Virus record (IMG/VR): IMGVR_UViG_3300009548_000025
Location: 1 to 27,336 of that record
Length of the DNA: 27,336 nt
Source: a virus
Reading direction: 5' to 3' (one strand)
Below, one piece after another: positions 5,870-20,118 of the stretch (position 1 is the first letter of the stretch; each line of letters starts with the position of its first letter). Made by a program: the position numbers and the translations under genes. The notes under the pieces were generated by a model that worked only from the letters and a program-made list of their open reading frames with translations, was not told where the DNA came from and searched no databases.

Positions 5870-6452
5870 CAACCCCCCTGCAATGAAGCATGTATACTGA
5901 CTTCACTAATTCCAAGAACCTATTGGCGGGGAGAGAAGACTTCATGGTATTATGCTCCTTGCAACATGGAACCGTGTTGTCCAAAGTATACCCCAGTGAG
6001 TTGTCCAACCTGTCAATACCATTTGCAATCATCCCAACATCCCGACCCCTCTTGACATCCTTTTTGTGTTTGCGCATAAACCTCATCTTCGGAGCACAGC
6101 CGCCCCAGTAACAATCCCGCTTTATGATAGAGGAGAACTCCTCTCTCGTGAGTTTCCACTCAAGGCCCCGTTCTTCTGCATGTTGACGGTACCGATAGAA
6201 GAGTCTATTAACAAAAATCTCCTCTACAGAGAGAGAAGACTGCGGAGGACCCCAAGGGTATTGTTTTCCCCTTTGGCTACGGTACCTACATTGTAAGCAT
6301 TTTGTAGATGTCCCTCTCTTGAGAGTCTGTTTCCCAACCTCTTTTTGATTATTACATCCTTGACACAAGCACAGCAAATACCCATCCCGCTTACCTTGGG
6401 ATAAGACTCTCCAAAGCCCAAATTCCCTACCAATCCAATCTATATTTGGCAT
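5847..6452 (-). CDS. Free-standing HNH homing endonuclease
   Basis: 201 residues from ATG 6452, chosen because GGGGGG sits 5 nt upstream (an ATG at 6476 has no SD). The N-terminal third has Cys pairs (CLCQGC, CLQC) that could bind zinc. The C-terminal half has the phage HNH core: CYWGGC, then NGIDRLDNSLGYTLDN and PCCKEHNTMKSS. Such enzymes nick or cut at intergenic or intron-less sites and spread by homing. It overlaps the metallophosphoesterase gene at its 3' end, an arrangement typical of an inserted selfish gene. Confidence 0.87.
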   Translation of the reverse strand: MPNIDWIGREFGLWRVLSQGKRDGYLLCLCQGCNNQKEVGKQTLKRGTSTKCLQCRYRSQRGKQYPWGPPQSSLSVEEIFVNRLFYRYRQHAEERGLEWKLTREEFSSIIKRDCYWGGCAPKMRFMRKHKKDVKRGRDVGMIANGIDRLDNSLGYTLDNTVPCCKEHNTMKSSLPANRFLELVKSVYMLHCRGVDESSAFE

Positions 6453-6494
6453 ATTGCCCCCCACTAGGGGTTCCATATACCAAATACTTAAAAT

Positions 6495-6689
6495 CTAATG
6501 TCTATTCCCGTCCTTATAATATTGAAAAACGTAGGTGTTTATTGCTTGCAGCCTATACCAGTTGCCAGCGTCGGCGAGCCTCTTACGTTCCTCTAAAATG
6601 GTTGACCACGGGGTAGCTTCGAGTAGATTGAAATTTTCTTGCGTCATGAAAGGCAGGAGGCAGTCGGGGATTGTATCCACGTGACGCAT
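6495..6689 (-). CDS. Small hypothetical protein next to tRNA-Gly
   Basis: 64 residues from ATG 6689, which lies only two bases after the encoded CCA of the upstream tRNA-Gly, so there is no room for an SD outside the tRNA. A later ATG at 6647 would give 50 residues. The sequence is soluble with a helical middle (ILEERKRLADAGNWYRLQA). No family recognised. If the tRNA is cut out at its 3' end, the remaining message would be nearly leaderless. Confidence 0.5.
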   Translation of the reverse strand: MRHVDTIPDCLLPFMTQENFNLLEATPWSTILEERKRLADAGNWYRLQAINTYVFQYYKDGNRH

Positions 6690-6691
6690 AT

Positions 6692-6768
6692 TGGAGCGGG
6701 CGATGGGATTTGAACCCACGACATCCAGCTTGGGAAGCTGGCGTTCTACCGGACTGAACTACACCCGC
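6692..6768 (-). tRNA. tRNA-Gly (CCC)
   Basis: Acceptor GCGGGTG pairs with CGCCCGC; discriminator T and encoded CCA (6692-6694). The anticodon loop TTCCCAA gives CCC; T arm GTGGG/CCCAT with loop TTCAAAT. Canonical U33. It reads GGG and lies apart from the main array. Confidence 0.93.
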
Positions 6769-6805
6769 ATATATAAGGATTCGGTAGCCTGTCTATACAA
6801 ACAGG

Positions 6806-7441
6806 CTACTGTTTTGCCGCCTTCCGTTGGGCGGAAGTGAACGACGCCTTGAGACCACGCCGGACGGCGCTGGTGTTGGCGCTTACGGCAAGGTATACCT
6901 CCTGAGTGGAGGAGGGGTTGTTGTTGTAGCTCATGGAAGTATCCGCCGAAATGTTGAATCCCTTGGCGGTCAGAACGGCGTTCTGATTGGCTCCCAAGAA
7001 GATGAAGGTCCAGTTGTACTTCTCTGTCTGGTGCTTCACCATGTTCGCCACATTTTCCTTCGTGAATTCCTTGCTGGCGTTCTCATGACCATCCGTGAGG
7101 ATGACGATGATGACCTTCTCCGGGCGCTCCTCTTCCGGCATCTTTTCCAGCCGCTCGCCAACCTCGATAATCGTCCACCCCATGGCGTCATGCAGGGGAG
7201 TGTTCTCCCGTGGGGAGAAGGTGTCCTTGGTCAGATTTGGAACGTCCGTCAAAGGTGCGTCGATAACGATTTCATGGGGGTCAATGGAGTCGAATTGGAC
7301 CAACAGGAGATGGGCTTCTCCGGGCTGCTGCTTCTGCCCATTGATGAACTCGTTGAAGCCGTCGATGGTCGCATCCTTGACGATGCTCATGGAACCGGAA
7401 CGGTCTAAAACTACGGCGATAAATGCGGAATCGGATTTCAT
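6806..7441 (-). CDS. von Willebrand factor A (VWA) domain protein
   Basis: 211 residues; almost the whole length is a VWA fold. The metal-ion-dependent adhesion site is complete: D13-x-S15-x-S17 (DRSGSMS), T81 (ENTPLHDA) and D117 (ILTDGHEN). The start is fixed by AAGGAGG 6 nt before ATG 7441. Such domains bind protein partners through a metal ion. In bacteria, stand-alone VWA proteins of this kind sit in stress, tellurite-type and AAA-ATPase-linked systems, but no partner ATPase is visible here. The C-terminus is basic (KAAKQ). Role in the phage unknown. Confidence 0.9.
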   Translation of the reverse strand: MKSDSAFIAVVLDRSGSMSIVKDATIDGFNEFINGQKQQPGEAHLLLVQFDSIDPHEIVIDAPLTDVPNLTKDTFSPRENTPLHDAMGWTIIEVGERLEKMPEEERPEKVIIVILTDGHENASKEFTKENVANMVKHQTEKYNWTFIFLGANQNAVLTAKGFNISADTSMSYNNNPSSTQEVYLAVSANTSAVRRGLKASFTSAQRKAAKQ

Positions 7442-7729
7442 ATGCCTCCTTGAATTTGGACGGGGACCAACAAGTCAGCGTCGTGGGTCCTAATCAATAA
7501 TCGCAACAACAGCGACCACAAACGACCAATCACAACTACTAACTAAAGTAAGGTTCGACCCGATAGGGTAGCCTTGTTCACCATCCTACAATCTTTATCG
7601 TCGGCGGAATTGGAAGTGAGCCGACTATCCGCACTCTTCTTGCGGCCCCCGGTAAAAGAGTTACTAGCTCGGCTCCCATTGCTGAGTAAATCCGTGGTCA
7701 AGCAGCGCTGATTCGCATCACGCACCAAG
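7442..7729 (-). other. Non-coding stretch upstream of the VWA gene, possibly structured
   Basis: No convincing gene. Read on the minus strand it contains a hairpin with a GNRA loop (GCGTGAT, GCGA, ATCA-CGC) near 7700, a 7-bp stem GAGCCGA/TCGGCTC (about 7615-7675) enclosing ACTCTT/AAGAGT, and GGACC/GGTCC near the VWA start. It may be a structured leader. I could not match it to group I intron, tmRNA or riboswitch motifs. Confidence 0.35.
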
Positions 7730-8194
7730 CTATAATACTGAAAATTTTGTGGACCTATAAGCCTTCTTCCAATTTTTATGACACTCTTTACACTGACGGT
7801 GTAACCCATTCCACATTGACCGGTTTTTATAAAACCTATCAACAGGAAAAAACATTTTGTGATTTGAGCACCAGCTTGTTCCCGGTGGACCTATTACTCT
7901 TTTTCCGATGTGTTGGGCTGCCTGAATATTGCATTTTTTATGGGCAAACGAAATATTTTCTAAATCCCAAAACAGATTCGGGTCCGAATTACGCCAAGGC
8001 TCTTTGTGTTCAATGCTAAAAGATGCTAACGTCTCAATCTTTGAACCACAGCGATAACAAACATCATCGTGGTTTTGTTGGATGTACCTAAAAAGAAGGT
8101 TTCGAGTAAGCTTATGGGTAGCTGACCCCGGACTCATACCTAACTGTCTTGTATAGTCCGCATTCAACCGCTTTTGTGACTTACTTTGTTTCAT
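7730..8194 (-). CDS. Free-standing HNH endonuclease with terminal zinc finger
   Basis: 154 residues. The HNH core has CYRCG, then FSIEHKEPWRNSDPNLFWDL, then ENISFAHKKCN, which matches the His-Asn-His pattern with flanking Cys pairs. It is followed by the short zinc-finger-like motif often fused to such enzymes (FYKNRSMWNGLHRQCKECHK). It starts 45 nt after the 3' end of the RNase P RNA, a typical position for a homing gene next to its target. Its last codons overlap a near copy of the RNase P RNA 3' end. SD GAGAG. Confidence 0.88.
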   Translation of the reverse strand: MKQSKSQKRLNADYTRQLGMSPGSATHKLTRNLLFRYIQQNHDDVCYRCGSKIETLASFSIEHKEPWRNSDPNLFWDLENISFAHKKCNIQAAQHIGKRVIGPPGTSWCSNHKMFFPVDRFYKNRSMWNGLHRQCKECHKNWKKAYRSTKFSVL

Positions 8195-8238
8195 GGCAAT
8201 CTCTCTAATAAGGTTGCCGTAGTCAAATCACTAAATTA

Positions 8239-8544
8239 TTTGTGGACTTATAAGCGGAGTTTTGTTCCTCTTGCGAGGCGACAACCATCAATCTAGCCCC
8301 CCCTATTACTAGGGGGGTCAAGCTCTCAACCCGAGGGTTATAGCGAACCGAGCAGGTTCATCCCCTCCTATTCGAGATTGCTCCCCGTGAAGATTGCCCG
8401 TTTCACCCGGACTTAACCGGCTCGTCTCTGTTGCTCTAATTGTCGCAGTATTGCTACTGCGCCGGGGCGTTACCCCGCACGGTGCTCTGTGTAGCTCCGA
8501 CTTTCCTCTCCCCCTTGCGGGGCAGCAGTTGTCCAGTCCACAAA
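8239..8544 (-). ncRNA. rnpB: RNase P RNA (bacterial type A-like)
   Basis: 306 nt on the minus strand. The ends pair as a perfect 10-bp P1 (8535-8544 with 8239-8248). In order it has the RNase P hallmarks: GAGGAAAGTC (CR-I, P4 5' strand), GGTAACGCC, AACAGAGA, GGGTGAAACGG, GGAGCAATCTCGAATAGG, GGGTTGAGAGCTTGA, TAGATTGATGGTTGTC (CR-IV) and ACAAAACTCCGCTTATAA (CR-V, P4 3' strand). RNase P cuts the 5' leaders from tRNA and tmRNA precursors. Here it lies downstream of a tRNA array and a tmRNA on the same strand. The RNA would need a host protein subunit (none seen here) or act in place of the host RNA. Confidence 0.95.
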
Positions 8545-8656
8545 CCTTTTCCAAACTTGGGATTATTAGGAGCGAAGATTCCCTTCGACCCATCCGGGTC
8601 AAGGGCCTTCAAAGTAAGATAGTAACTCATGCTCCCGATGCTCACGCCGTCACCTT

Positions 8657-8680
8657 ACATCTCACACTACATCTCACACT
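8657..8680. repeat. 12-nt tandem duplication upstream of the RNase P RNA
   Basis: ACATCTCACACT occurs twice in direct tandem, followed by ACAT. It lies between the glycosyltransferase stop (8698) and the RNase P RNA 5' end (8544), where a promoter or processing site would be expected. No function can be assigned. Confidence 0.6.
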
Positions 8681-8697
8681 ACATAGTGCTACCAAAT

Positions 8698-9330
8698 TCA
8701 TCTAATCTCCTTGGCCTTTTCGTGGACCATTTGAATGCCCATGAAACGTTCTTCGGTGGTAAGTGTGTGTGGGTGGTAAGTGATGATGTCGTTTTCCGGG
8801 AGAGGGACCCTTCCCTCCGTCATACTGTAACGACCATCGTGCTCTGTGGGACAAACGCTATTAAATGACAGCGTTGCCCATACCCACCAATCCTCATCGT
8901 TGTAGCAACGGGTGTCCTTTAAGCAGGGCGCTGACGCAAGAAACTCTAACGCTTTCCTACTGAGCCAGTACCCGGAGCCTCCGTAGGGTTGGTTATTTTC
9001 CCCCACACCCCGTTGTCCTATATGGTCATGCCGCTCAAACCCCGACCGGAGTAACCGAGGGGTGCAAACATAGGTATCAACATCACACTTAAAAACGTGG
9101 TCATAGCTGTACATTATCACCCATTGATATGCAGCTTGGACCTTGGATGAGAGGTCTCCGTATGTGTCAGAAACATTCAGCGAAACCTCATCATCATCAG
9201 CATTTTCCAATTTGGGACTACCCAAGAAAAACCGATAATCAACCGGGCACTCTCTCAACCATGTTTCCCTGAGTTGCTGCTGCCAGCGACGGTGAGCGTG
9301 GCAACTCATAATGGATATCAGCGGTCGCAA
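8698..9330 (-). CDS. GT31-like galactosyltransferase family protein
   Basis: 210 residues. It shows the beta-1,3-glycosyltransferase (GT31, GT-A fold) pattern: an N-terminal strand then RRWQQQLRETW, YGDLSSKV, the metal-binding DxD at D83-V-D85 (VFKCDVDTYV), GGSGYWLS (117-124) and E146-D147 (NDEDWWVWATL). These enzymes transfer a sugar from a UDP-sugar; the acceptor is unknown (phage DNA, virion protein or host surface glycan). The start is TTG 9330, favoured because an ATG at 9309 would remove the first beta-strand. It follows the small zinc-binding protein gene by four bases. No signal peptide or membrane anchor. Confidence 0.8.
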   Translation of the reverse strand: MRPLISIMSCHAHRRWQQQLRETWLRECPVDYRFFLGSPKLENADDDEVSLNVSDTYGDLSSKVQAAYQWVIMYSYDHVFKCDVDTYVCTPRLLRSGFERHDHIGQRGVGENNQPYGGSGYWLSRKALEFLASAPCLKDTRCYNDEDWWVWATLSFNSVCPTEHDGRYSMTEGRVPLPENDIITYHPHTLTTEERFMGIQMVHEKAKEIR

Positions 9331-9334
9331 TTAC

Positions 9335-9481
9335 TCACACCGTCTCCTTGCACCCGCAGGGTTCATAATCCTGTTGCCATCCGGGCGGGATACTCTTCAT
9401 CCACCCCTTGACCTTGACCCTTACGGTGCAGGGCTTTTTGTATTTACGATGCTTGCATTTGGAACATTTGGCGGAAGCCAT
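9335..9481 (-). CDS. Small Cys-rich (zinc-ribbon-like) protein
   Basis: 48 residues from ATG 9481 to TGA 9335. It has two Cys pairs (CSKC near the N-terminus and CGC near the C-terminus, plus one more Cys), separated by a basic segment, as in small zinc ribbons that bind nucleic acid. The ATG follows the tmRNA 3' end by eight bases with no SD in between. Its stop is four bases before the next start, so it belongs with the glycosyltransferase gene. No family recognised. Confidence 0.6.
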   Translation of the reverse strand: MASAKCSKCKHRKYKKPCTVRVKVKGWMKSIPPGWQQDYEPCGCKETV

Positions 9482-9489
9482 AAATTTTT

Positions 9490-9841
9490 TGGTGGAGGCG
9501 CTGGGATTTGAACCCAGGTCCGAAAAGTGTCACAACAAGAAGACTACACGCTTATCCTGCTTCGTACTGCTCTTTGCCATGACTCTGCTGAAACAGGCAT
9601 ATCAGAACCACGGTGCAAGCCTTTATCTCGCCGGATATCGGCTGCATCCCCGGTCGCAGCCTCTCTATCGGCGCTTGGCCTCTACCCGACAGGCTAAAGC
9701 AGAGCAAGCGTGCCTAATCTAGCGATTAAGCAAATGCATATTGCGCTGTGGCAATTGCGTTGTTAACCCTTGTTACGGGCAGGGTAACCTCCCGGCGTGC
9801 CTTCCTGCAATGAGCGCTCCCGTCGAAACCAGAACGCCCCC
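9490..9841 (-). ncRNA. ssrA: tmRNA (transfer-messenger RNA)
   Basis: 352 nt on the minus strand including an encoded CCA. The 5' end GGGGGCGTTCTGGTTTCGACGG is typical of one-piece tmRNA. The 3' end has T arm CTGGG-TTCAAAT-CCCAG and acceptor CGCCTCC, which pairs with GGGGGCG. The tag reading frame ends in AIATAQYAFA and TAA (9726-9728); the resume codon is either this first GCA or the GTT-AAC-AAC just before it, giving a 10- or 13-residue tag. tmRNA frees stalled ribosomes and tags the peptide for proteolysis; SmpB would come from the host. The tag ending YAFA is a typical hydrophobic degron. Confidence 0.95.
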
Positions 9842-9942
9842 ACATTAAACGGGACACCGCATATATGCTACCCAGTGTGAGCGTAGTGCCCTAAGGCATG
9901 TCCCTTATGTAACCACCGGAGTGTCCCAAACCGTCACATTAC

Positions 9943-10149
9943 TTATAGTTCAAACCCAGACTCATAGACTCCGGTAATCCGCATATTACCATCGATGTAA
10001 TCACCGTTGAAGTCTACGAAATCCTGCTCCTTAAGGTTTTTTGACTTTTCAGTCGCTTCCTCTAAAGACCGGGCCGAAACAGTGGTACTGGTGTAGAGTG
10101 TGAGTTTTGCCTGAACCTCGTAATCCCTGATTTTTTCCTTTTTCATCAT
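9943..10149 (-). CDS. Small hypothetical protein (68 aa)
   Basis: 68 residues with two consecutive Met codons; GGGAG fits the second ATG (10146) best. Predicted beta-alpha-beta-beta: EVQAKLTLYTSTTVSA, an acidic/lysine helix EEATEKSKNLKEQ, then DFVDFNGDYIDGNMRITGVY. No membrane segment. It sits between a tRNA-like element and the tmRNA. The motif CAGTATTAG lies at 10163-10171, just upstream. Function unknown. Confidence 0.7.
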   Translation of the reverse strand: MMKKEKIRDYEVQAKLTLYTSTTVSARSLEEATEKSKNLKEQDFVDFNGDYIDGNMRITGVYESGFEL

Positions 10150-10185
10150 ATGCTCCCAAGGACTAATACTGAGATTCTTAAAAAA

Positions 10186-10279
10186 TGGTAGGGGACCGGG
10201 GTGTCAATCCCCGCCGAGCACGGTAATCAGCCGCAACTACAGGTTTATAGGACCTGCCTGCACGTCGGTGCTATCCCCC
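10186..10279 (-). tRNA. Aberrant tRNA-like element, class II shape, anticodon loop CCTATAA
   Basis: The acceptor pairs GGGGGAT with GTCCCCT, with discriminator A and an encoded CCA. The anticodon stem CAGGT/ACCTG and T stem CGGGG/CCCCG are perfect. The T loop is ATTGACA instead of TTCRANN. The D arm is reduced to GCAC-CGAC-GTGC without G18G19, and there is a 26-nt variable region. Loop CCTATAA has C33 and TAT in the anticodon register. Identity cannot be assigned; it may be a pseudo-tRNA or a tRNA mimic. Confidence 0.6.
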
Positions 10280-10284
10280 AGAGT

Positions 10285-10362
10285 TGGTACCGTGGACGGG
10301 ACTCGGACCCGCTAATGCTCTGGTTGAAAGCCAGAGGACTCGACGACTTTGTCTTCCACGGT
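10285..10362 (-). tRNA. tRNA-Glu (TTC)
   Basis: Acceptor ACCGTGG/CCACGGT, discriminator A, CCA encoded. Anticodon arm TCTGG-CTTTCAA-CCAGA gives TTC; T arm GCGGG-TCCGAGT-CCCGT. It reads GAA. Confidence 0.9.
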
Positions 10363-10371
10363 ATAAAGTTT

Positions 10372-10435
10372 GAGGCTGCGAAGTATCCACGTTTGGGAGT
10401 ACAAAGGCGGGCAGCAGCCTCATCATTTTGCCCGC
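10372..10435. other. Potential H-type pseudoknot between tRNA genes
   Basis: Two perfect inverted repeats interleave: GAGGCTGC (10372-10379) with GCAGCCTC (10414-10421), and GCGGGCA (10407-10413) with TGCCCGC (10429-10435). The two stems touch with no base between them, the geometry of a coaxially stacked H-type pseudoknot, and would fold on either strand. No tRNA or gene occupies 10363-10471. Confidence 0.5.
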
Positions 10436-10471
10436 ACCCACTACGTGGTCAATGGTAGCCATGACCTCACT

Positions 10472-10548
10472 TGGAGCACGGGATAGGATTTGAACCTATG
10501 AATGCAGGTTTTGCGGACCTGTCCCTTAAGCCGCTTGGGTACCCGTGC
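10472..10548 (-). tRNA. tRNA-Cys (GCA) with C33
   Basis: Acceptor GCACGGG/CCCGTGC, discriminator T, CCA encoded; D arm CCC/GGG; T arm ATAGG-TTCAAAT-CCTAT. The anticodon arm CAGGT-CCGCAAA-ACCTG gives GCA but has C at position 33 in place of the near-universal U. Confidence 0.85.
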
Positions 10549-10554
10549 TTAAAC

Positions 10555-10628
10555 TGGAGACCCGGATGGGAATCGAACCCACTTAAACGGTTTTGCAGAC
10601 CGCCTCCTAACCATTCGGAATCCGAGTC
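10555..10628 (-). tRNA. tRNA-Cys (GCA)
   Basis: Acceptor GACTCGG/CCGGGTC, discriminator T, CCA encoded. Anticodon arm GCGGT-CTGCAAA-ACCGT gives GCA with normal U33; T loop TTCGATT. A second Cys tRNA six bases from the first. Confidence 0.92.
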
Positions 10629-10629
10629 A

Positions 10630-11142
10630 CTAAACATAAATTTTTCCACCATATTCATCCGCTATTTTTAAGAAATTCTCATCACGGATGCCATGATGTT
10701 CGGTACGATGACAGTTGGAACAGAGTAATTCACATTTTTTTAATTCTTTGACTATCGTTGCCCATGCTCTGTTACTAACCGTACCAATATCGAACTCTTT
10801 GTTGTCTCCGGGGTGGTGAAACTCAAAAGCCGCAATGTCTCCGACCCATCCACACCGATTGCATTTTCCTCCAAGCCACTTTACGGCTGTACGTTTAGCT
10901 CGAAAACGTCTAATGCGGGATACACAGGTATTACACATACGCCTGCGAGGACCGGTGTTCTGACCACATAAGCGGCAGTGGAAATTTCTATTCTCATCCC
11001 GGTCAGTTTCATAATTAAATTTCTTTCCCTTAAATGGGCTACAGGATAAACAATACCTGCGACCGTTCAGCTTTTTTATTTTCCCATCAACATTTACCCT
11101 TGATGGAATATACCCACCGCAATTTTTGCAAATAAGCATCAT
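10630..11142 (-). CDS. Free-standing HNH endonuclease with three zinc-ribbon motifs
   Basis: 170 residues. The N-terminus has CKNC and CLSC, the middle CRLCG and CNTC, then the HNH module: CNRCGW, FEFHHPGDNKEF, CELLCSNCHRTEHH. The paired cysteines hold zinc around a beta-beta-alpha metal nuclease. The gene starts with two Met codons behind AGGGG and ends one base from tRNA-Cys, so it was probably inserted among the tRNA genes by homing. Confidence 0.9.
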   Translation of the reverse strand: MMLICKNCGGYIPSRVNVDGKIKKLNGRRYCLSCSPFKGKKFNYETDRDENRNFHCRLCGQNTGPRRRMCNTCVSRIRRFRAKRTAVKWLGGKCNRCGWVGDIAAFEFHHPGDNKEFDIGTVSNRAWATIVKELKKCELLCSNCHRTEHHGIRDENFLKIADEYGGKIYV

Positions 11143-11201
11143 AACCCCTATAAAGGGGGTTGGTAGTTCAAATTATGCCTTTCCACTTGGCGACAGGTGC
11201 G

Positions 11202-11393
11202 TTACTCTTCGGCGACATCTTGTATGAAAATGCGCCTAATCTTTATTTTCGTTGACCAGTAGAGTCGGCATCCTTCCACTATCGCCCAACTCAACGTATG
11301 GAGAATCATCCATCCTACCACAATCCAGTGGCTAAACTCATCAAATATACGAATTGGCTCGTATACCAGCAGTTTGTGAATGATGTTATCCAT
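11202..11393 (-). CDS. Small single-pass membrane protein (hypothetical)
   Basis: 63 residues. Residues about 22-42 (WIVVGWMILHTLSWAIVEGC) form one hydrophobic segment, followed by a basic stretch (KIKIRR) and an acidic end, suggesting N-out/C-in topology. There is no strong SD before ATG 11393. Not recognised; may be a phage inner-membrane accessory peptide. Confidence 0.55.
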   Translation of the reverse strand: MDNIIHKLLVYEPIRIFDEFSHWIVVGWMILHTLSWAIVEGCRLYWSTKIKIRRIFIQDVAEE

Positions 11394-11412
11394 AGGCTCA
11401 TGGTCTTGCCTT

Positions 11413-11610
11413 TTACAAACTTCCCGTCAGGTCTGCTTGTGCTCCACACGGGCAGTGAACACTGATAAAATCCCCAATACCACTTGGGCAGATGTTGAAG
11501 CTGTAAAGGTCACCACACGTACCGGGCCGGAGTTTGCACTTTTTCTTGTGCTCTTTCTCCCAAGCCTTGAACTTCGCTTCCTCGTTTATGTCCAGCGTCA
11601 ACGTTGCCAC
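11413..11610 (-). CDS. Small Cys-containing protein (GTG start)
   Basis: 65 residues from GTG 11610, fixed by GGAG six bases upstream. The N-terminal half is a charged helix (DINEEAKFKAWEKEHKKKC). The second half has CGDL, CPSG and CPCGAQ, cysteines that could hold a metal. It lies just downstream of the Glu tRNAs in the same direction. No family recognised. Confidence 0.65.
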   Translation of the reverse strand: MATLTLDINEEAKFKAWEKEHKKKCKLRPGTCGDLYSFNICPSGIGDFISVHCPCGAQADLTGSL

Positions 11611-11622
11611 AACATCTCCACT

Positions 11623-11699
11623 TGGCAGGGCCGATGGGATTTGAACCCACGGTTTCCAGATTGAGAATCTGGCGACTTAAGCCACTTGTCTACGACCCC
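11623..11699 (-). tRNA. tRNA-Glu (CTC)
   Basis: Acceptor GGGGTCG/CGGCCCT, discriminator G, CCA encoded. Anticodon arm CCAGA-TTCTCAA-TCTGG gives CTC; T arm GTGGG-TTCAAAT-CCCAT. It reads GAG. Confidence 0.9.
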
Positions 11700-11706
11700 A
11701 TGAATT

Positions 11707-11780
11707 TGGTAGCCCGTAGGGGAATCGAACCCCTCTTTACAGATTGAGAATCTGCTGTCCTGCCGATAGACGAACAGGCC
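11707..11780 (-). tRNA. tRNA-Glu (CTC), second copy
   Basis: Acceptor GGCCTGT/ACGGGCT, discriminator A, CCA encoded. Anticodon arm GCAGA-TTCTCAA-TCTGT gives CTC; T arm GGGG-TTCGATT-CCCC. It differs from the neighbouring Glu(CTC) gene outside the anticodon loop, so it is not a recent copy. Confidence 0.9.
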
Positions 11781-11822
11781 GTGAAAATCAACTATCAAAT
11801 ACATAGGTGGAGGTAATCACAC

Positions 11823-12473
11823 TTGCATACTGACATATCAAATCCACCCGAAGAATCAATAATATCTACACTCTACGATGGGAAGCCAAGAAGGCTGTTT
11901 CTTCATTACTGTACACTTCCCACATGCAAAAGGCCTTTTTACTTACCCAAACACTCTAATGGTCAATACTGCTCAAGAGAGTGCTCGGGGGTTGCTAGTA
12001 GAACAAGAGTTACTGTAAAATGCTCATTTTGCTTTACTAGCTTTGAAAAACGCCCCGCTCAAATTAAAGCATCAAAATCTGGTCTGCTTTTTTGCTCACG
12101 GGCATGTAAAGACCACGCTCAGTCTATCCTATCCGGTGAGGCATTTCATGATATGAGACCAGACCATTACACTAACGGTGGAGCGGCGTATCGAGAAATT
12201 GCATTCAAACATCATCCAAAAAAATGCAATCGTTGTGGATACGCCCGCTTTACCCCAGTTCTGCGGGTTCACCATATAGACCGCAATCGAAAAAACAACA
12301 AACCTGAAAACCTTGAAATCCTTTGCCCCACCTGCCATGAAGATGAACACTTCATCGCTAAGGATGGACTATATACTTTCAAAAACTTGGTGGATACGGC
12401 GGGAGTCGAACCCGCAATCGTTCTTCCGTGCGAGGGAAGTGCCATCCCATTAGGCGACGTACCCAAAACTTGA
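11823..12473 (+). CDS. HNH endonuclease, plus strand inside the tRNA array
   Basis: 216 residues from TTG 11823, with GGAGG eight bases upstream. Cys pairs (CTLPTC, CSREC, CSFC, CSRAC) form zinc ribbons. The HNH core is CNRCGY, VLRVHHIDRNRKNNKPENLE, CPTCHEDEHF. The last ~28 codons run antisense through tRNA-Ala(CGC), so the original end is probably near 12390 and the tail is read-through. Orientation opposite to all tRNAs points to insertion by homing. Confidence 0.85.
   Translation: MHTDISNPPEESIISTLYDGKPRRLFLHYCTLPTCKRPFYLPKHSNGQYCSRECSGVASRTRVTVKCSFCFTSFEKRPAQIKASKSGLLFCSRACKDHAQSILSGEAFHDMRPDHYTNGGAAYREIAFKHHPKKCNRCGYARFTPVLRVHHIDRNRKNNKPENLEILCPTCHEDEHFIAKDGLYTFKNLVDTAGVEPAIVLPCEGSAIPLGDVPKT
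12388..12464 (-). tRNA. tRNA-Ala (CGC)
   Basis: Acceptor GGGTACG/CGTATCC contains the G3-U70 pair that defines alanine tRNAs; discriminator A, CCA encoded. Anticodon arm CTTCC-CTCGCAC-GGAAG gives CGC; T arm GCGGG-TTCGACT-CCCGC. It reads GCG. Confidence 0.93.
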
Positions 12474-12474
12474 T

Positions 12475-12554
12475 GACGCTGGTCCTACTCTCCGGGCTGT
12501 TAACCCCTCTCCTTGGCGTCGTGTCACCCACTTCTGGAGCACGAACCCAGCGTC
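12475..12554. repeat. Inverted-repeat-bounded element in the tRNA array
   Basis: GACGCTGG (12475-12482) pairs perfectly with CCAGCGTC (12547-12554), enclosing 64 nt. The size and closing stem resemble a tRNA, but there is no T arm, no CCA and no standard D arm. Read on the minus strand, an inner loop TTAACAG is closed by GGG/CCC. Nature unknown. Confidence 0.4.
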
Positions 12555-12559
12555 GTTCT

Positions 12560-12646
12560 TGGTGGAGCCGGAGGGATTCCCACCCCCAAGTGTTGTAAAC
12601 ACTACGCTCTTCCGATGGCAGAAGGTTCTGCTTAAGCTCCGGTCCC
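12560..12646 (-). tRNA. Aberrant tRNA-like element, Val(TAC)-like
   Basis: CCA is encoded with discriminator A. Acceptor GGGACCG/CGGCTCC has one A-C mismatch. The D loop is enlarged to about 24 nt by a hairpin (GCAGAA/TTCTGC). The anticodon loop TTTACAA gives TAC but the stem has only four pairs. T stem GGGGG/CCCTC carries loop TGGGAAT without T55-C56, and no variable loop remains. It could be a decayed tRNA-Val or a tRNA mimic. Confidence 0.5.
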
Positions 12647-12652
12647 AAACTT

Positions 12653-12727
12653 TGGTGCGCCCGGTAGGGGTCGAGCCTACCACCTCTTGCTTGTCGAGCA
12701 AGCGCTCTCCCGCTGAGCTACAGGCCC
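12653..12727 (-). tRNA. tRNA-Val (GAC) with C33
   Basis: Acceptor GGGCCTG/CGGGCGC with a G2-G71 mismatch; discriminator A; CCA encoded; D arm GCTC/GAGC with GG in the loop. The anticodon arm CTTGC-TCGACAA-GCAAG gives GAC with C33. T arm GTAGG-CTCGACC-CCTAC. It reads GTC. Confidence 0.82.
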
Positions 12728-12733
12728 ACAAAC

Positions 12734-12838
12734 TGGAGCGGGCGACCGGCGTTCAGCCGGTACAACATGCCTGACTTGATATCAAGCCCGGACACGGCGT
12801 GGTCTGGTGGACCACCGCTCTGATTAAGCTACACCCGC
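12734..12838 (-). tRNA. Aberrant tRNA-like element, Gly(ACC)-like, with a long insertion
   Basis: Acceptor GCGGGTG/CGCCCGC, discriminator T and CCA are identical to those of tRNA-Gly(CCC) at 6692. The D stem GCTT/GAGC encloses only AATCA (no G18G19). The anticodon stem GTGGT/ACCAC carries CCACCAG, giving ACC with C33. A 37-nt insertion with the palindrome CTTGATATCAAG fills the variable region. T stem ACCGG/CCGGT has loop CTGAACG. Decoding ability is doubtful. Confidence 0.55.
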
Positions 12839-12877
12839 AAAATTCGGGACAACCGGCTGGTTAAGCTAGTCATCCGC

Positions 12878-12954
12878 AGGTTCTACTGCTCGGGGTCCCT
12901 TTTCAGGGGAACCACCACAGTCCCCCTTACTGAGGGACCCTGCTGGTAGAACCT
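12878..12954. other. Long rod-like hairpin in the tRNA array
   Basis: Three stacked stems: AGGTTCTAC/GTAGAACCT (12878-12886 with 12946-12954), GGGTCCCT/AGGGACCC (12893-12900 with 12933-12940) and AGGGG/CCCCT (12905-12909 with 12923-12927). They are separated by near-symmetric internal loops (TGCTCG opposite TGCTG). No coding region overlaps. It could be a processed small RNA or an RNase III-type site between tRNAs. Confidence 0.55.
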
Positions 12955-12997
12955 CGCCACTCGTCAGCTTCGACAGCCCTTAGAGTGACTACAATCT

Positions 12998-13071
12998 TGG
13001 AGCGGGACATGGGAATCGAATCCGTTTCACAACCTTGGGAAGGTTGGGCACACCCAATATACCATACCCGC
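12998..13071 (-). tRNA. tRNA-Gly (CCC), imperfect
   Basis: Acceptor GCGGGTA/GTCCCGC pairs at five of seven positions; discriminator T; CCA encoded; D arm GGTA/TGCC with GGG in the loop. Anticodon arm CAACC-TTCCCAA-GGTTG gives CCC. The T stem ACGGA/CCCAT has two C-A mismatches around a normal TTCGATT loop. It may be decaying; a better Gly(CCC) lies at 6692. Confidence 0.75.
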
Positions 13072-13117
13072 CTAAACTTTAGCGAAAACCGACTTTCGAC
13101 CTCCTTTTATAGGAGGT

Positions 13118-13192
13118 TGGAGCGGGATACCGAAGTCGAATCGGTACGACCACGTTGGAAGCGTGGCATGCTACCATTGACATCAATCCCGC
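13118..13192 (-). tRNA. tRNA-Gly (TCC)
   Basis: Acceptor GCGGGAT/ATCCCGC, discriminator T, CCA encoded. Anticodon arm CCACG-CTTCCAA-CGTGG gives TCC; T arm ACCGA-TTCGACT-TCGGT. A hairpin ACCTCC/GGAGGT lies just downstream (13099-13117). Confidence 0.93.
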
Positions 13193-13205
13193 CCAAAAAA
13201 CAACT

Positions 13206-13754
13206 ATGAATCAATGCCCAGTCTGTAATACACCAGCAAACCACATCTATTGTTCGCTAGCATGCAGCAACAAGAGCCGGACTGCTAAAAATGAAGCTAA
13301 ATACATGCTCAGCCCTAAACGTTGCCCCGTATGCGAAGCATCCATCCCCTACAACAAACGGTTTGATAACACATATTGCTCCAGTTCTTGTTCGGCAAAA
13401 GCAAGCAACGCAAAGAGACCAAAAAAACCGAAACCAGAACCGAAAGGACGTGGGCACTACCTCCATGCAAAGGCCCTAGAACAGTTTGAACTAGGGGGAG
13501 TCAAGCACCGAAAAACCATCCGCAAAATCCTCATCTCAAAAAGAGGAAATAACTGTGAAATCTGCGGTATGCTGCTCGTTTGGTGCAACAAACCCCTTAT
13601 TCCAGTCGTAGACCACATTGATGGAGATGCTGGAAACTGTAAACCAGACAACGTCCGCTTAACTTGTCCAAACTGCAACAGCCAGACTCCAACTTTCTGT
13701 GGTCGAAATAAAGGCAACGGAAGACAATCCCGAGGGATGTCTAAGTATGCCTAA
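13206..13754 (+). CDS. HNH endonuclease, plus strand inside the tRNA array
   Basis: 182 residues from ATG 13206 (an earlier ATG at 13155 lies inside the tRNA-Gly). It begins with two zinc-ribbon units (CPVCNTP/CSLAC and CPVCEAS/CSSSC), a basic linker (KRPKKPKPEPKG), then the HNH module CEICG, PVVDHIDGDAGNCKPDNVR, CPNCNSQ. It ends five bases before tRNA-Ala(TGC). Opposite orientation to the tRNAs suggests a mobile gene. No clear SD. Confidence 0.87.
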   Translation: MNQCPVCNTPANHIYCSLACSNKSRTAKNEAKYMLSPKRCPVCEASIPYNKRFDNTYCSSSCSAKASNAKRPKKPKPEPKGRGHYLHAKALEQFELGGVKHRKTIRKILISKRGNNCEICGMLLVWCNKPLIPVVDHIDGDAGNCKPDNVRLTCPNCNSQTPTFCGRNKGNGRQSRGMSKYA

Positions 13755-13758
13755 ACTT

Positions 13759-13832
13759 TGGTGGAACCACGGGGGGTCGAACCCCGGTTTTCTGCGTGCA
13801 AGGCAGAAGTCCTCCCATTAGACGATGGCCCC
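13759..13832 (-). tRNA. tRNA-Ala (TGC)
   Basis: Acceptor GGGGCCA/TGGTTCC includes G3-U70; discriminator A; CCA encoded. Anticodon arm TCTGC-CTTGCAC-GCAGA gives TGC; T loop TTCGACC. It reads GCA. Confidence 0.93.
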
Positions 13833-13839
13833 ACAAACT

Positions 13840-13913
13840 TGGAGCAGAGGAGGAGAATCGAACTCCCGTATGAACGTTGGCAACGTCCCGCACTGCCATT
13901 GTGCTACCCCTGC
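13840..13913 (-). tRNA. tRNA-Gly (GCC)
   Basis: Acceptor GCAGGGG/CCTCTGC, discriminator T, CCA encoded. Anticodon arm GGACG-TTGCCAA-CGTTC gives GCC; T arm GGGAG-TTCGATT-CTCC. It reads GGC. Confidence 0.92.
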
Positions 13914-13922
13914 AAATCTTTC

Positions 13923-14044
13923 GCCTTGTGGGCTGGCTTACCATACCCATGAGCACAGTATCCCAAATCGAACGGGAGAGGCCAGCCTTGGATGCCCTTC
14001 TATTTACAGTCGTCTATGACCGCTGCGGTTACCCGCCACAAGGC
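13923..14044. other. Nested inverted-repeat RNA element in the tRNA array
   Basis: GCCTTGTGG (13923-13931) pairs with CCACAAGGC (14036-14044). Directly inside, GGCTGGC (13931-13937, sharing one base) pairs with GCCAGCC (13981-13987), leaving a second domain at 13988-14035. About 120 nt, no reading frame, no CCA. Multi-helix RNA of unknown kind, flanked by tRNA-Gly and tRNA-Val. Confidence 0.45.
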
Positions 14045-14147
14045 TTAAAACAGGGCGGCTCTTAACGTAAGTCGCCGATAACACCGGTCGTCAGCCGGAT
14101 TAGCCGTATACGTTGACATCTGGTAGACATTACTGTCAACCAGAACT

Positions 14148-14225
14148 TGGTGCCCCGAACAGGACTCAAACCTGTGTTCTCCATCGTGTGAAGGTGGCGC
14201 TTTGAAGCCACTAAGCTACCGGGGC
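14148..14225 (-). tRNA. tRNA-Val (CAC)
   Basis: Acceptor GCCCCGG/TCGGGGC, discriminator A, CCA encoded. The anticodon arm CCACC-TTCACAC-GATGG has one C-A mismatch and gives CAC; T arm ACAGG-TTTGAGT-CCTGT (T in place of C56). It reads GTG. Confidence 0.87.
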
Positions 14226-14236
14226 ATATTTAATTT

Positions 14237-14315
14237 TGGTACTCCGGGTGGGACTCGAACCCACGAGTTTACCTGCTTGTAAGGCAGGTGTCTTAGCCGC
14301 TCGACTCACCGGAGT
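14237..14315 (-). tRNA. tRNA-Val (TAC)
   Basis: Acceptor ACTCCGG/CCGGAGT, discriminator A, CCA encoded. Anticodon arm CCTGC-CTTACAA-GCAGG gives TAC; T arm GTGGG-TTCGAGT-CCCAC. First tRNA after the upstream terminator/attenuator. Confidence 0.93.
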
Positions 14316-14337
14316 AAAAAGTCTCCTTAAAACACAA

Positions 14338-14359
14338 AAGGCGCTCTTTCGAGCGCCTT
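14338..14359 (-). terminator. Intrinsic terminator upstream of the tRNA array (attenuator 3:4 stem)
   Basis: On the minus strand AAGGCGCTC and GAGCGCCTT form a 9-bp stem closed by a GAAA tetraloop, followed by the T-rich tract TTTTGTGTTTT and then the first tRNA. Its 5' arm overlaps the alternative stem at 14354-14363, so it can be prevented from forming. Confidence 0.85.
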
Positions 14360-14404
14360 CGGGGGTCCTTGCTTGGATTTTCTATCCAAGCCCTCCCGAA
14401 GGCG
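14354..14404 (-). promoter_or_regulatory. Antiterminator stem (2:3) of a transcription attenuator
   Basis: CGCCTTCGGG (14404-14395 on the minus strand) pairs over ten bases with CCCGAAGGCG (14363-14354). Inside its loop, GCTTGGAT/ATCCAAGC (14391-14384 with 14378-14371) forms a further stem. The structure excludes both the terminator (14338-14359) and the upstream hairpin AGGCGA-TACC-TCGCCT (14415-14400). The three stems therefore have the 1:2, 2:3, 3:4 order of a classical attenuator. Confidence 0.75.
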
Positions 14405-14483
14405 AGGTATCGCCTCCCTCACACACTGCGGCGACCGCTTCTATCGTGTCAACCGGGTTTGTGATGACCGTTTTCATGTTCAT
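14382..14483 (-). CDS. Leader peptide of the tRNA-array attenuator (33 aa)
   Basis: 33 codons from ATG 14483 (or the third codon, ATG 14477) to TAG 14382. Residues 15-24 read EAVAAVCEGG (14412-14441), exactly the five amino acids served by the tRNA genes downstream. The ten codons are all different; GAA, GCG, GTC, GCA, GTG, TGT, GAG, GGA and GGC each have a matching tRNA in the window, and only GCC lacks one. The last codons of the run overlap arm 1 of the 1:2 hairpin, so a ribosome stalled there would favour the antiterminator. A -10-like TATTAT (in CAGTATTAT, 14495-14503) lies just upstream, preceded by TTGATG at 18 bp. Initiation signal: GAAGCGAG. The peptide itself probably has no function. 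Confidence 0.7.
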   Translation of the reverse strand: MNMKTVITNPVDTIEAVAAVCEGGDTSPSGGLG

Positions 14484-14527
14484 CTCGCTTCTATATAATA
14501 CTGTCGGTAGTTCAAAAACATCAAAAC

Positions 14528-17235: not shown

Positions 17236-20118
17236 TTATATATCGCAACTGTTTCCAGAGCAAGCAACTTCCTTCATCGCCGTGGTGTGGTCATCTTTCT
17301 CAAATTCAGGAAGCTTTAACCAGTCTATTTCCGGCATCTTAAGACTAGCCGCCCGATACTCCACTTCGGATACCTCCGTGTAGGGAGCCTGCTTATAGAT
17401 GTGGTTGGTGAATGGAAGGAATGCTATCCCGCCGATTTGGTCAAAGTGCTTGTAGACCCATGTAGCCACTTCCAACCACTCGTGGTCCCGGACATAGATG
17501 GTCGTACTGGGGTTGTGTTCGGTCCAGTGCTGCCGGTAAGTGAGGTAGAGTTCAAGCTGTTCAATAGCCGTCAGCTTGTTCCGAGTGATAGACCCCTCGG
17601 GGGAAGCCAAGGGGAAGAAGAACACATCCACATCGTTGGGTTTCGTAACATCTGGCTCATTGGGAACTCCACATGCCTTGAGGAATGCCCCAATGGGATT
17701 TTTACGGTCTTCCCGGATAGCCCGCACGAGGTATTCGCTAAACCTCGTATGGATGCCTGGCGAGCAGTTGACCAGTTGGCTGACCGTGCCGGACGGCTTG
17801 ACACAGGTAACGGCGACGGAGGGGGTGATGCCCAGCTTCCCTGCCCACTCCACGTTAACGGCGACAGCGTGTTGACGGAGGTGGTCCAGAAGGGGAGCAA
17901 GCTCCTTGCTGTTGGTGGAGAGCAGCCGGTTGTCCATGATTCCCGAGAGTGAAACGCCCAATAAGCGCTCTTCCTCGGCGTTTCGCTGCCAATCCTTACG
18001 CAGGTACCTAAATTCCGTTAACGTCGATTGTAGGGTGCCTAGAATCGCCGCAAGGCATATTTTACGTTCAAGGCTGACGGCGTCGTCGGACGGACGGCAG
18101 ACAACCTCGGTGAGATTGCATTGATATGTCAGAACATTAGCAAAGAGAGCCATATGTTTCTCAGGTTCGGAGAAACAGAAAACATCATGCCGTCCCGGCA
18201 GTGGAACAACGCTGCGAACAATCTGATATTTCCCCTTAAACCTTGGGATATGCCCACCCTTTGTATTCACTCTATGACTGGGGATATTAGAGCAATCTGT
18301 TATTTGAAGGTACCACAAATCATCACTACGAACCCCGTAGTTGGTCTTAATTCCTGCCGACTCACACAAATTTACCAATGAACGTATCCCTTGTTTAGTC
18401 AAAAGAAGTTGCATCTTTCGAGCACGAAGCTCACCGGATATATACAAGCGCACTCCTCCTGTTCCAGTCTCAGAGCCATCGGCATCCATCCACCCAGCCA
18501 CAAACTCTAAAACCGATTTCTTATTCCACAAGAACAGCCTATCTAGTGCCGTATGATCTGTTTTCAAGGCTTTCATTAAAGAGACATCTACAAACTTTGT
18601 GCAGGAGATTCTTTGACTATCAACACTATACCCCGGTTTCCGGCGTACTTTCGCACGACTTCCTGCCAGGGGCAGGGTCTGGTCTTTACGACCATATAAG
18701 TCAGCAGTAACAATACTAGAATCCCCGTTACTACTGCCGTCACCAACGCAAAAACCAAGGGTATAAGCGTGATTAATACAGTTTCCATCCTTTGAAGAAA
18801 CAATCTTTGTAGGTTCGACCTGAACGGGGTATTTGCTATACTTCATTAAGTTTTTAGCTTCCACCCGTTTCCAATTTTTTTGAAATCTAGTCTTTACTGA
18901 GAACCCGTGGTCAGGGGTGCAATCCAAGTAAGAACCATCAGATAAAGTAACACGCAATAGCTGTTGTAATGAACCAGTCTGGCGGATAACAACGTCCGAC
19001 CAGCCCTTTCCATTCCACACCGAAACAGTCTTTCCAACATTTTCACCTATTTTTATAATCCCTAATTTTGTAATTAAGGGGGTTTGTTTTGATACACATA
19101 GACCCTTACTTCTAAGTATAATTTCGCCACACGGGTTGATTCCAAACTCAATCCCCTCCCACTTACGGCGACCCACGGACTTGGCTTTCTTGACGGCAGC
19201 ATCCCGGTTGTAGATGCCCCGCTCCCCGGACCGGCTCTCACAAAGTGACAACCACTCCCGGATGAAGGTGACCATCTCTGGTTTTTCGGTGTAGACGGCG
19301 GAGTTGTTGGCTAAGGCCCGTTGCGGATTTTCAATCCACCACTGACCGTTCTTGGCGTTGCGCATCCGGTCATCGGATAAATTGGAGAGGGATATCATTG
19401 CCGACCGGCGCACACCACCTGAAACCACGATGTCGGCTACCATGCACATGAGGTCGTGGCATTCGAGAGACGTGAGCTTGCGCCCAGCTGCATTCTTGAA
19501 AAGCTGAACAGTGAACTTGAAGAGGCGGTCTAACGGTCCCGGCCCGGATGCCCTGCCGCCGAAGGTCTTGAGCGGCATACCAGCCGGGCGGACGGAGGAG
19601 AGGTCCCATTGCGGGATTGAACCACCGTAGAGCAAAGCGATGAGTTGGCGGAAACCGGAAGCCCAGCCAATTTTGGAATCACGAATTTTGATGATGGTCT
19701 CAACGGGATAGAAATTTTCGGCGACGGTGGGGAGTTGATTTACATATTGGCGCTCTACGGAGAAACCCAAGCCTACACCGCACATACTGATATACATCGC
19801 TTCGTCAAATGCACGGGGGTCATCAATAGCCAAAAAGCTGCAATTATAAGCGGCGACTTCATCCTTTTCGAGCGCCTTTCCTGCGGTCATCATGGCTCGC
19901 ATGGAGGGCATGACTTCCAGATTGAGTATAGCATTTTCCAACTCTTTTGAAGTTTCTTCTCGAACGTCGGCGGGGATTCTCTTGGATATAAATTCGATGT
20001 ATCTGTGAACGGTTTCAGACCAGTCTTCCCGACGACTCTTCTCAGGAAGCCAACGGGCATACCTACTTTTATAGATATATTCTTGAAACGGCGTAACAGC
20101 ACCACTCTTCAAAGTCAT
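17236..20118 (-). CDS. nrdJ: Class II (B12-dependent) ribonucleotide reductase with intein
   Basis: 960 codons, SD ACAGGAG. After removing residues 341-666 (intein) the enzyme is 634 residues, somewhat short for the monomeric adenosylcobalamin-dependent ribonucleoside triphosphate reductase family. Key residues by analogy with the Lactobacillus enzyme: C93 (NCSF) and C667 as the redox pair, N328, C330 (thiyl radical) and E332 in NPCGEI, CVKPSGTVS in the barrel, and the C-terminal shuttle pair C953/C958. It reduces ribonucleotides to deoxyribonucleotides for phage DNA synthesis; B12 would come from the host. No B12 riboswitch is visible upstream. The intein splits the active site, so activity requires splicing. 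Confidence 0.93.
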   Translation of the reverse strand: MTLKSGAVTPFQEYIYKSRYARWLPEKSRREDWSETVHRYIEFISKRIPADVREETSKELENAILNLEVMPSMRAMMTAGKALEKDEVAAYNCSFLAIDDPRAFDEAMYISMCGVGLGFSVERQYVNQLPTVAENFYPVETIIKIRDSKIGWASGFRQLIALLYGGSIPQWDLSSVRPAGMPLKTFGGRASGPGPLDRLFKFTVQLFKNAAGRKLTSLECHDLMCMVADIVVSGGVRRSAMISLSNLSDDRMRNAKNGQWWIENPQRALANNSAVYTEKPEMVTFIREWLSLCESRSGERGIYNRDAAVKKAKSVGRRKWEGIEFGINPCGEIILRSKGLCVSKQTPLITKLGIIKIGENVGKTVSVWNGKGWSDVVIRQTGSLQQLLRVTLSDGSYLDCTPDHGFSVKTRFQKNWKRVEAKNLMKYSKYPVQVEPTKIVSSKDGNCINHAYTLGFCVGDGSSNGDSSIVTADLYGRKDQTLPLAGSRAKVRRKPGYSVDSQRISCTKFVDVSLMKALKTDHTALDRLFLWNKKSVLEFVAGWMDADGSETGTGGVRLYISGELRARKMQLLLTKQGIRSLVNLCESAGIKTNYGVRSDDLWYLQITDCSNIPSHRVNTKGGHIPRFKGKYQIVRSVVPLPGRHDVFCFSEPEKHMALFANVLTYQCNLTEVVCRPSDDAVSLERKICLAAILGTLQSTLTEFRYLRKDWQRNAEEERLLGVSLSGIMDNRLLSTNSKELAPLLDHLRQHAVAVNVEWAGKLGITPSVAVTCVKPSGTVSQLVNCSPGIHTRFSEYLVRAIREDRKNPIGAFLKACGVPNEPDVTKPNDVDVFFFPLASPEGSITRNKLTAIEQLELYLTYRQHWTEHNPSTTIYVRDHEWLEVATWVYKHFDQIGGIAFLPFTNHIYKQAPYTEVSEVEYRAASLKMPEIDWLKLPEFEKDDHTTAMKEVACSGNSCDI
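18121..19098 (-). other. LAGLIDADG intein in the ribonucleotide reductase
   Basis: 326 residues (341-666). It begins with Cys (CVSKQTPLI); block B is CTPDHGFSV with the usual His. Two LAGLIDADG motifs (YTLGFCVGDGS and FVAGWMDADGS) form the homing endonuclease. It ends LTYQ before Cys 667, so the terminal residue is Gln instead of Asn and the penultimate residue is Tyr instead of His, an unusual but known kind of ending. The +1 Cys is itself the redox-active cysteine of the reductase. Confidence 0.92.

Follow-up and report, generated by a model that had tools for sequence, protein, structure and literature searches.

A candidate multivalent attenuator ahead of a jumbo-phage tRNA array, with matching leaders in other phages

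The window, a 27,336-nt stretch of viral DNA (IMG/VR record IMGVR_UViG_3300009548_000025), is a fragment of a jumbo phage and carries on its minus strand a tRNA array together with a tmRNA and an RNase P RNA (Table 1). ARAGORN counts 13 tRNAs and one tmRNA, not the 14 tRNAs of the original prediction; a further likely tRNA is Glu(UUC) at 10364–10281. This tRNA-Glu(UUC)-like sequence (ACCGTGGAAGAC...CCACGGTACCA, minus strand) has odd arms, is missed by both ARAGORN and Rfam, and has a similar copy in a 317-kb relative (L006 14106–14182). The array (6692–14315) serves almost only G-starting codons (Val, Ala, Gly and Glu, with Asp in the relative) plus Cys, so that the division of tRNAs in this phage group appears largely to follow the first codon base or the amino-acid family.

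Other elements are interspersed with the tRNAs. A segment of ~150 nt between tRNA-Val(GAC) and tRNA-Gly(CCC) (12827–12998, minus strand) is ~91% identical to its counterpart in the relative (L006 12253–12500), and several of the surrounding tRNAs have diverged more than it has; it lacks an Rfam match and is possibly an unknown structured RNA. Small ORFs of HNH type, read by eye, lie at 13155–13754, 11823–12473, 10630–11142 and 7730–8194, and their positions differ between the two phages, which suggests mobile endonucleases within the array. Elsewhere in the window, an intein with an HNH domain is found in one protein (3263–4714 and 17236–20118, minus strand, corresponding to the intein protein and a ribonucleotide reductase ORF). 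The reductase ORF matches its homologues only in separated pieces (~66% coverage), and an insertion may therefore be present there too.

Ahead of the first tRNA, translation of the sequence bears out the predicted 33-codon frame. Its control codons read GAA GCG GTC GCC GCA GTG TGT GAG GGA GGC GAT, the run EAVAAVCEGG spanning 14441–14412 and the Asp codon following at 14411–14409. An exact scan of IMG/VR for ACTACCGRYRGTATTATAT returned 15 stretches, 14 of which lie ahead of leaders or of arrays A, C or D of the window's phage group, and the 317-kb relative holds three copies.

Table 1. Features of the window and leaders preceding tRNA arrays in other phages
Feature	Genome	Position	Strand	Basis or content
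Promoter-like element ACTACCGACAGTATTATAT, conserved, ahead of leader	Window	14493..14511	minus	Exact IMG/VR scan for ACTACCGRYRGTATTATAT
Leader ORF MNMKTVITNPVDTIEAVAAVCEGGDTSPSGGLG-stop	Window	14382..14483	minus	33 codons; conserved in 317-kb relative apart from V6A and T13L
Control codons E A V A A V C E G G D	Window	14409..14441	minus	Residues match array Val, Gly, Ala, Glu, Cys (plus Asp in relative)
Hairpin 1:2 (14417–14410 with 14405–14398)	Window	14398..14417	minus	Fold
Antiterminator 2:3 (14403–14395 with 14363–14355)	Window	14355..14403	minus	Fold without arm 1; complementarity test
Intrinsic terminator 3:4 (14360–14351 with 14346–14337)	Window	14337..14360	minus	Fold; compensatory pairs
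Val(UAC) and Val(CAC), first two tRNAs	Window	14148..14315	minus	ARAGORN; Val(UAC) starts at 14315
Remaining array: Gly(GCC), Ala(UGC), Gly(UCC), Gly(CCC), Val(GAC), Ala(CGC), Glu(CUC) x2, Cys(GCA) x2	Window	10472..13913	minus	ARAGORN
tmRNA, tag ATAQYAFA, downstream of array	Window	9490..9841	minus	
RNase P RNA, class A	Window	8235..8544	minus	
Array A leader MKNLSSNSLSSLSYSSSLLSGLVLPDGWDG	317-kb relative			Precedes Tyr, Leu, Ser tRNAs
Array B leader MRNRKPNPMQWQPKRHFSRPSFGGLPFAP	317-kb relative			Precedes His, Arg, Asn, Lys, Phe, Met, Pro, Gln(CUG), Trp
Array C leader MLTITMPHTQTQTTISSGGGACLA	317-kb relative			Precedes Ile, Thr, Gln(UUG)
Array D leader (the window's leader)	317-kb relative			Precedes Val, Gly, Ala, Asp, Glu, Cys
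Array 1 leader MKTLCLSSYCLSSSLSLSDGWD...	Tunturi_5			Precedes Leu, Cys, Tyr, Ser
Array 2 leader MQHVSTFRFAVPATAGNPAGQQGTNA...	Tunturi_5			Precedes Asn, Gln, Gly, Thr, Pro, His, Ala, Phe
Array 3 leader MKQILKQLGHDFDIRGKRGVVVDTWDITIRGERKWSDVRDMRV...	Tunturi_5			Precedes Trp, Asp, Met, Lys, Val, Arg, Glu, Ile, Gly
gp149 (annotated hypothetical protein), MTRIHTTLPTAKPASTGALTLASWPASSKPLLRHSAVLA	CcrBL9			Precedes Pro, Thr, Lys, Leu, His, Ala, Ser, Trp
Second leader MSKMYRQFVRQIQSVRVNR...	CcrBL9			Precedes Tyr, Val, Ile, Gln, Asn, Arg, Phe
gp083, MFALSHNSLSTKAASPASLSLAPLATATKPSTKPTTSASHSTDHL	phiCbK			Leader before terminator already annotated in record
Unannotated leader MSKTYRQFVRQIQVVRNIR...	phiCbK			Before terminator already annotated in record

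The three mutually exclusive hairpins that had been proposed for the leader were reproduced by folding in silico, with coordinates within a few bases. A segment containing arm 1 (14420–14335) folds as 1:2 plus 3:4, and the segment from which arm 1 has been removed (14405–14335) folds as 2:3. The antiterminator encloses a small hairpin that contains the stop codon, and a further hairpin lies upstream in the full fold of the leader. On the minus strand, the folding of the 161-nt leader is beyond that of every dinucleotide shuffle (z -4.5; 0/200 as good). The terminator consists of GAAGGCGCTC-GAAA-GAGCGCCTTT followed by a T-rich tail, confirming the predicted GAAA loop and T tract, and the first tRNA begins ~22 nt further on. 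No Rfam family, T-box included, was matched at the leader in a search of the whole window at gathering scores and of 6400–14400 at E up to 0.05; the leader thus gives no sign of the specifier-loop structure, binding tRNA directly, that defines T-box riboswitches.

Taken by itself, the window makes a weak statistical case. The residues of the whole ORF match those of the array with a marginal p = 0.04, and, once Asp is included, the leader run is equaled by about 10 of the 20,284 ten-residue windows drawn from these phages' long ORFs (~1 in 2,000), so that the 1-in-100,000 chance first attached to this run was too strong. That all ten of its codons differ is true but not unusual: 14 of the 17 control codons are distinct where 12.0 are expected (P = 0.12), and codon diversity, which we rejected as a signal, is not significant in most leaders. 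The case for a match between leader and array, as read from sequence, is carried by the comparative evidence and not by the window alone.

The 317-kb relative (IMG/VR 3300041809_000571; loci L005/L006 and L014–L016), in which TerL gave no phrog_2 match, contains 62 tRNA matches in four clusters, and a leader and a terminator stand at each of the four. Its D leader is that of the window with the two substitutions V6A and T13L and is identical through the control codons and arms; in the terminator stem, three base pairs show compensatory change, from CTC-GAAA-GAG to GCT-GAAA-AGC, and divergence is seen in both the upstream gene and the first tRNA. Together the four arrays cover all 20 amino acids, with Gln alone occurring in two sets. 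Its isoacceptors are split between arrays B and C, leader B carrying CAG with tRNA CUG and leader C carrying CAA with tRNA UUG. Among the 24 possible assignments of leaders to arrays in this phage, the real one scores best.

Fragments resembling the window's own phage, or a close relative of it, carry the same arrays. In one such leader A, in-frame deletions and one insertion have left the Leu/Ser/Tyr make-up intact, and in leader B both the antiterminator and the terminator have been rebuilt (TTTGCG/CGCAAA to TTCGC/GCGAA). Among close relatives, the array was not found conserved without the leader codons or the stems.

Tunturi_5, a cultured phage of Tunturiibacter (PP885688.1, 309 kb; PMC11924767), shares a distantly related HslV-like protein with the window phage and divides its tRNAs otherwise, into three arrays, each with a leader and a terminator. 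Cys belongs to the Leu/Ser array and to its leader in Tunturi_5, whereas it belongs to array D and leader D in the window's phage. Gly is split between two Tunturi_5 arrays, and there the leaders match at the codon level only partially.

Leaders were also found in Caulobacter and Brevundimonas jumbo phages, following a scan of unrelated phages, later refined, for an ATG-initiated ORF and a terminator ahead of tRNAs. In phiCbK, the two annotated terminators lie near record positions 49,769 and 51,502. At least one leader of the CcrBL9/phiCbK pair is present in CcrColossus, CcrRogue, CcrBL10, C1 and the Brevundimonas phages Kikimora, Bajun and Kabachok, and several leaders have the same make-up with the residues reordered (for example Colossus, MTFSTHKPSTLKPATGAASLAHASLLTPATSKPSLSRSL). 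Tyr, Arg, Gln, Phe, Val, Ile and Asn account for 117 of the 127 control residues in eight leaders of the second type, here termed gamma; variable sites are swapped mostly within the residues of the array, and even unlikely replacements occur, Phe for Asn among them. The short ORF ahead of an array matches that array in the relative (4/4), in Tunturi_5 (3/3) and in the phiCbK-like pairs.

The Tyr codons of the phiCbK and CcrBL9 leaders predict a tRNA-Tyr, although Tyr and Thr tRNAs had been reported absent from phiCbK-like phages, along with any functional RNA besides tRNAs (Gill et al. 2012, PMC3556154). We then saw tRNA-Tyr(GUA)-like genes in phiCbK (L100 6207–6290) and CcrBL9 (L093 8409–8494). 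They are detected by neither ARAGORN nor Rfam and were overlooked in the phiCbK paper, and their location corresponds to that of the annotated tRNA-Tyr of Kikimora and Bajun.

To evaluate the match across phages, leaders were grouped into 12 families with one representative each. All 12 rank their own array best, a result equaled by none of 200,000 random assignments, and the control codons are in this sense cognate to the operon behind them, as expected of an attenuator. Every identity of the array is present in the leader in 11 of the 12 families, the exception being Met in the second leader of the 634-kb huge phage LR745206. In most phages the match is confined to the amino-acid level. Some leaders have only a weak Shine-Dalgarno site, which counts against the attenuator reading.

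The arrangement of the leaders is equally consistent. In all 14 leaders compared, the stop codon lies 19–32 nt from the terminator, the short ORF ending near the terminator as it does in attenuators. Complementarity between the final 60 nt of the ORF and the 5' arm of the terminator exceeds that of dinucleotide shuffles (Fisher ~6e-13 over the 14 leaders, a value that overstates the strength because some leaders are homologous); taken singly, 3 of the 14 are clearly not significant and several more are marginal.

Compensatory changes affect all three helices in the gamma leaders of eight Dolichocephalovirinae phages, extending to the Caulobacter/Brevundimonas family the covariation seen in the relative's terminator. 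In the alignment, four pairs of the terminator have changed on both sides (covariation score reached by 0/500 shuffles), as have two pairs of the antiterminator (6/500) and two of hairpin 1:2 (1/500), and pairing falls sharply in slid controls. A single change can be followed through every helix: at columns 44/58/139/157, CcrBL9 has T/A/T/A where most phages have T/G/C/G. The covariation, with the folds of the window, points to a mutually exclusive antiterminator such as a ribosome-mediated attenuator requires, and the compensatory changes likewise support an intrinsic terminator ahead of the first tRNA. Indels within the aligned leaders are multiples of three; together with substitutions that keep to the residues of the array, they suggest that the leader may be translated.

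Further cases are individually weak and serve as support only: the leaders of LR745206 and of the phage G015 gave p 0.004–0.04 and were picked from several scanned candidates, and G015 has one possible leader and none ahead of its first array. No matching leader was found ahead of the mixed tRNA arrays of the relatives G014 and G017, nor in the unrelated tRNA-rich phages Phosso, RcXuper, StarPlatinum, DSS3_MAL1, DuncansLeg, LR745208, LR756500 and T5. The design is therefore not universal, nor is it required for carrying tRNAs. In a relative of G014 (L086 1750–1944), a 64-codon ORF containing all 20 amino acids precedes a strong terminator and a mixed tRNA array, and is possibly a sensor for that array.

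We interpret the window leader as very probably a multivalent, ribosome-mediated transcription attenuator that would switch the phage tRNA operon on when any of the encoded tRNAs is short. The ORF, the terminator, the alternative pairings, the match of residues to array, the covariation and the recurrence of the design are all evident in the sequences, and the attenuator originally proposed for this array gains support from the covariation and from the matching leaders upstream of other arrays. Leader translation, termination, ribosome stalling and induction would follow the classical scheme. A ribosome trailing RNA polymerase through the short ORF would sample, codon by codon, the tRNAs of the operon behind it. 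With all relevant aminoacyl-tRNAs plentiful, it would run on to the stop codon and occupy arm 2, so that the 3:4 terminator would form and no tRNAs would be made. Should any of them become scarce, the ribosome would halt on the control codons and mask arm 1, and the 2:3 antiterminator would let the array be transcribed. In jumbo phages, a large complement of tRNAs is distributed over two to four arrays, and a matching putative sensor precedes each of them.

The inducing signal is most likely a shortage of usable tRNA during infection, through cleavage of host tRNA by defence nucleases or through exhaustion, and not amino-acid starvation as such. We infer this because tRNA genes would cure a loss of tRNA, not a lack of amino acids, and because Gln codons follow the isoacceptors (a single split box; the Gly split of Tunturi_5 is followed in part). 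It is possible, though in our judgment unlikely, that the same attenuator senses starvation through uncharged tRNA, the tRNAs being made as charging falls. Classical leader-peptide attenuators all sense charging, the architecture cannot separate the two signals, and the leader–array match is mostly one of amino acids; against this, extra tRNA genes would not relieve starvation, and the separation of Gln isoacceptors into arrays whose leaders each hold only the matching Gln codon argues, for that one box in the window's group, for sensing at the isoacceptor level.

The earliest control codons lie 20–30 nt before arm 1; in the window, the first four occupy 14441–14430 and arm 1 starts at 14417. 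The usual footprint of a stalled ribosome is too short to reach arm 1 from these four codons, and the control codons may therefore not all act equally: the first four may act more weakly, or via the upstream hairpin of the full fold. This distance would also suit a leader that senses the overall rate or shutdown of translation through transcription–translation coupling, with the matched codons as a by-product of codon adaptation, since a delay at any point of the leader would alter the relative progress of ribosome and polymerase. We hold this to be improbable, given that a general sensor needs no array-specific codon sets and that permutations within phages favor the matched assignment. That the terminator merely insulates the tRNAs from the upstream transcript, with constitutive read-through and a small ORF that arises by chance or encodes a small structural protein, would accord with how common terminators are between phage operons, with the annotation of those of phiCbK as terminators and with the marginal residue match in the window, but it is already contradicted by leader compositions that track array compositions in 12 families, by the covarying alternative helices and by the leader's own conserved promoter-like element, and is highly improbable.

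A multivalent attenuator builds on a mechanism that is known as such, ribosome-mediated attenuation of amino-acid operons. In enterobacteria, the thrL and ilvL leaders hold mixed control codons of several amino acids. The theory of attenuation in amino-acid operons has been treated (PMC1183508). The phage leaders resemble thrL and ilvL in their short ORF, overlapping 1:2, 2:3 and 3:4 hairpins and intrinsic terminator. However, thrL and ilvL respond to two or three amino acids and govern operons encoding biosynthetic enzymes, whereas the phage operons would consist of the tRNAs themselves, with up to nine identities per leader and several sensors dividing the amino acids. T-box riboswitches likewise control transcription by the state of tRNA, but they bind uncharged tRNA directly and need no leader ORF.

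The phiCbK-like phages were described with the same elements, gp083 and predicted terminators before tRNA clusters (PMC3556154), and a term search of the main text of that paper and of the Tunturi paper (PMC11924767) turned up neither leaders nor attenuation. Phage tRNAs have been presented as a counter-defence that replaces host tRNAs cleaved by defence nucleases (PMC10264068, PMC11555353); the titles and abstracts of these two papers propose a reason for carrying tRNAs and describe no operon-specific sensor that switches them on. A full-text literature search, which covered open-licence papers only, gave no report of a tRNA array controlled by an attenuator, so that absence is not proof. Within that scope, the original statement that no mixed-codon attenuator had been described for such an array stands, mixed codons themselves being known. 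We likewise found no account of the apparent use of attenuation on tRNA genes in phages, where a single leader covers as many as nine amino acids and the leaders of a set share the amino acids out among them.

These leaders appear to form a class of regulatory RNA overlooked by annotation, gp083 being called hypothetical and others left unannotated, and they help to find overlooked tRNAs such as the tRNA-Tyr reported absent. As natural multi-residue sensors of tRNA supply, they could serve as reporters of translation stress. More broadly, we regard as an evenly balanced proposition that jumbo phages of unrelated hosts have a control of tRNA supply spanning the genetic code, in which two to four operons, each sampling its own codons at the isoacceptor level, would detect the failing part of the host tRNA pool, for example under an anticodon-nuclease defence, and restore it. 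What phages gain from carrying tRNAs has been an open question for decades, with codon compensation set against the replacement of cleaved host tRNAs. A sensor for each array, written in the array's own amino acids, would mean that the tRNAs are made in response to their shortage and would tie phage tRNAs to translation stress, and the question becomes directly testable in phiCbK and Caulobacter crescentus.
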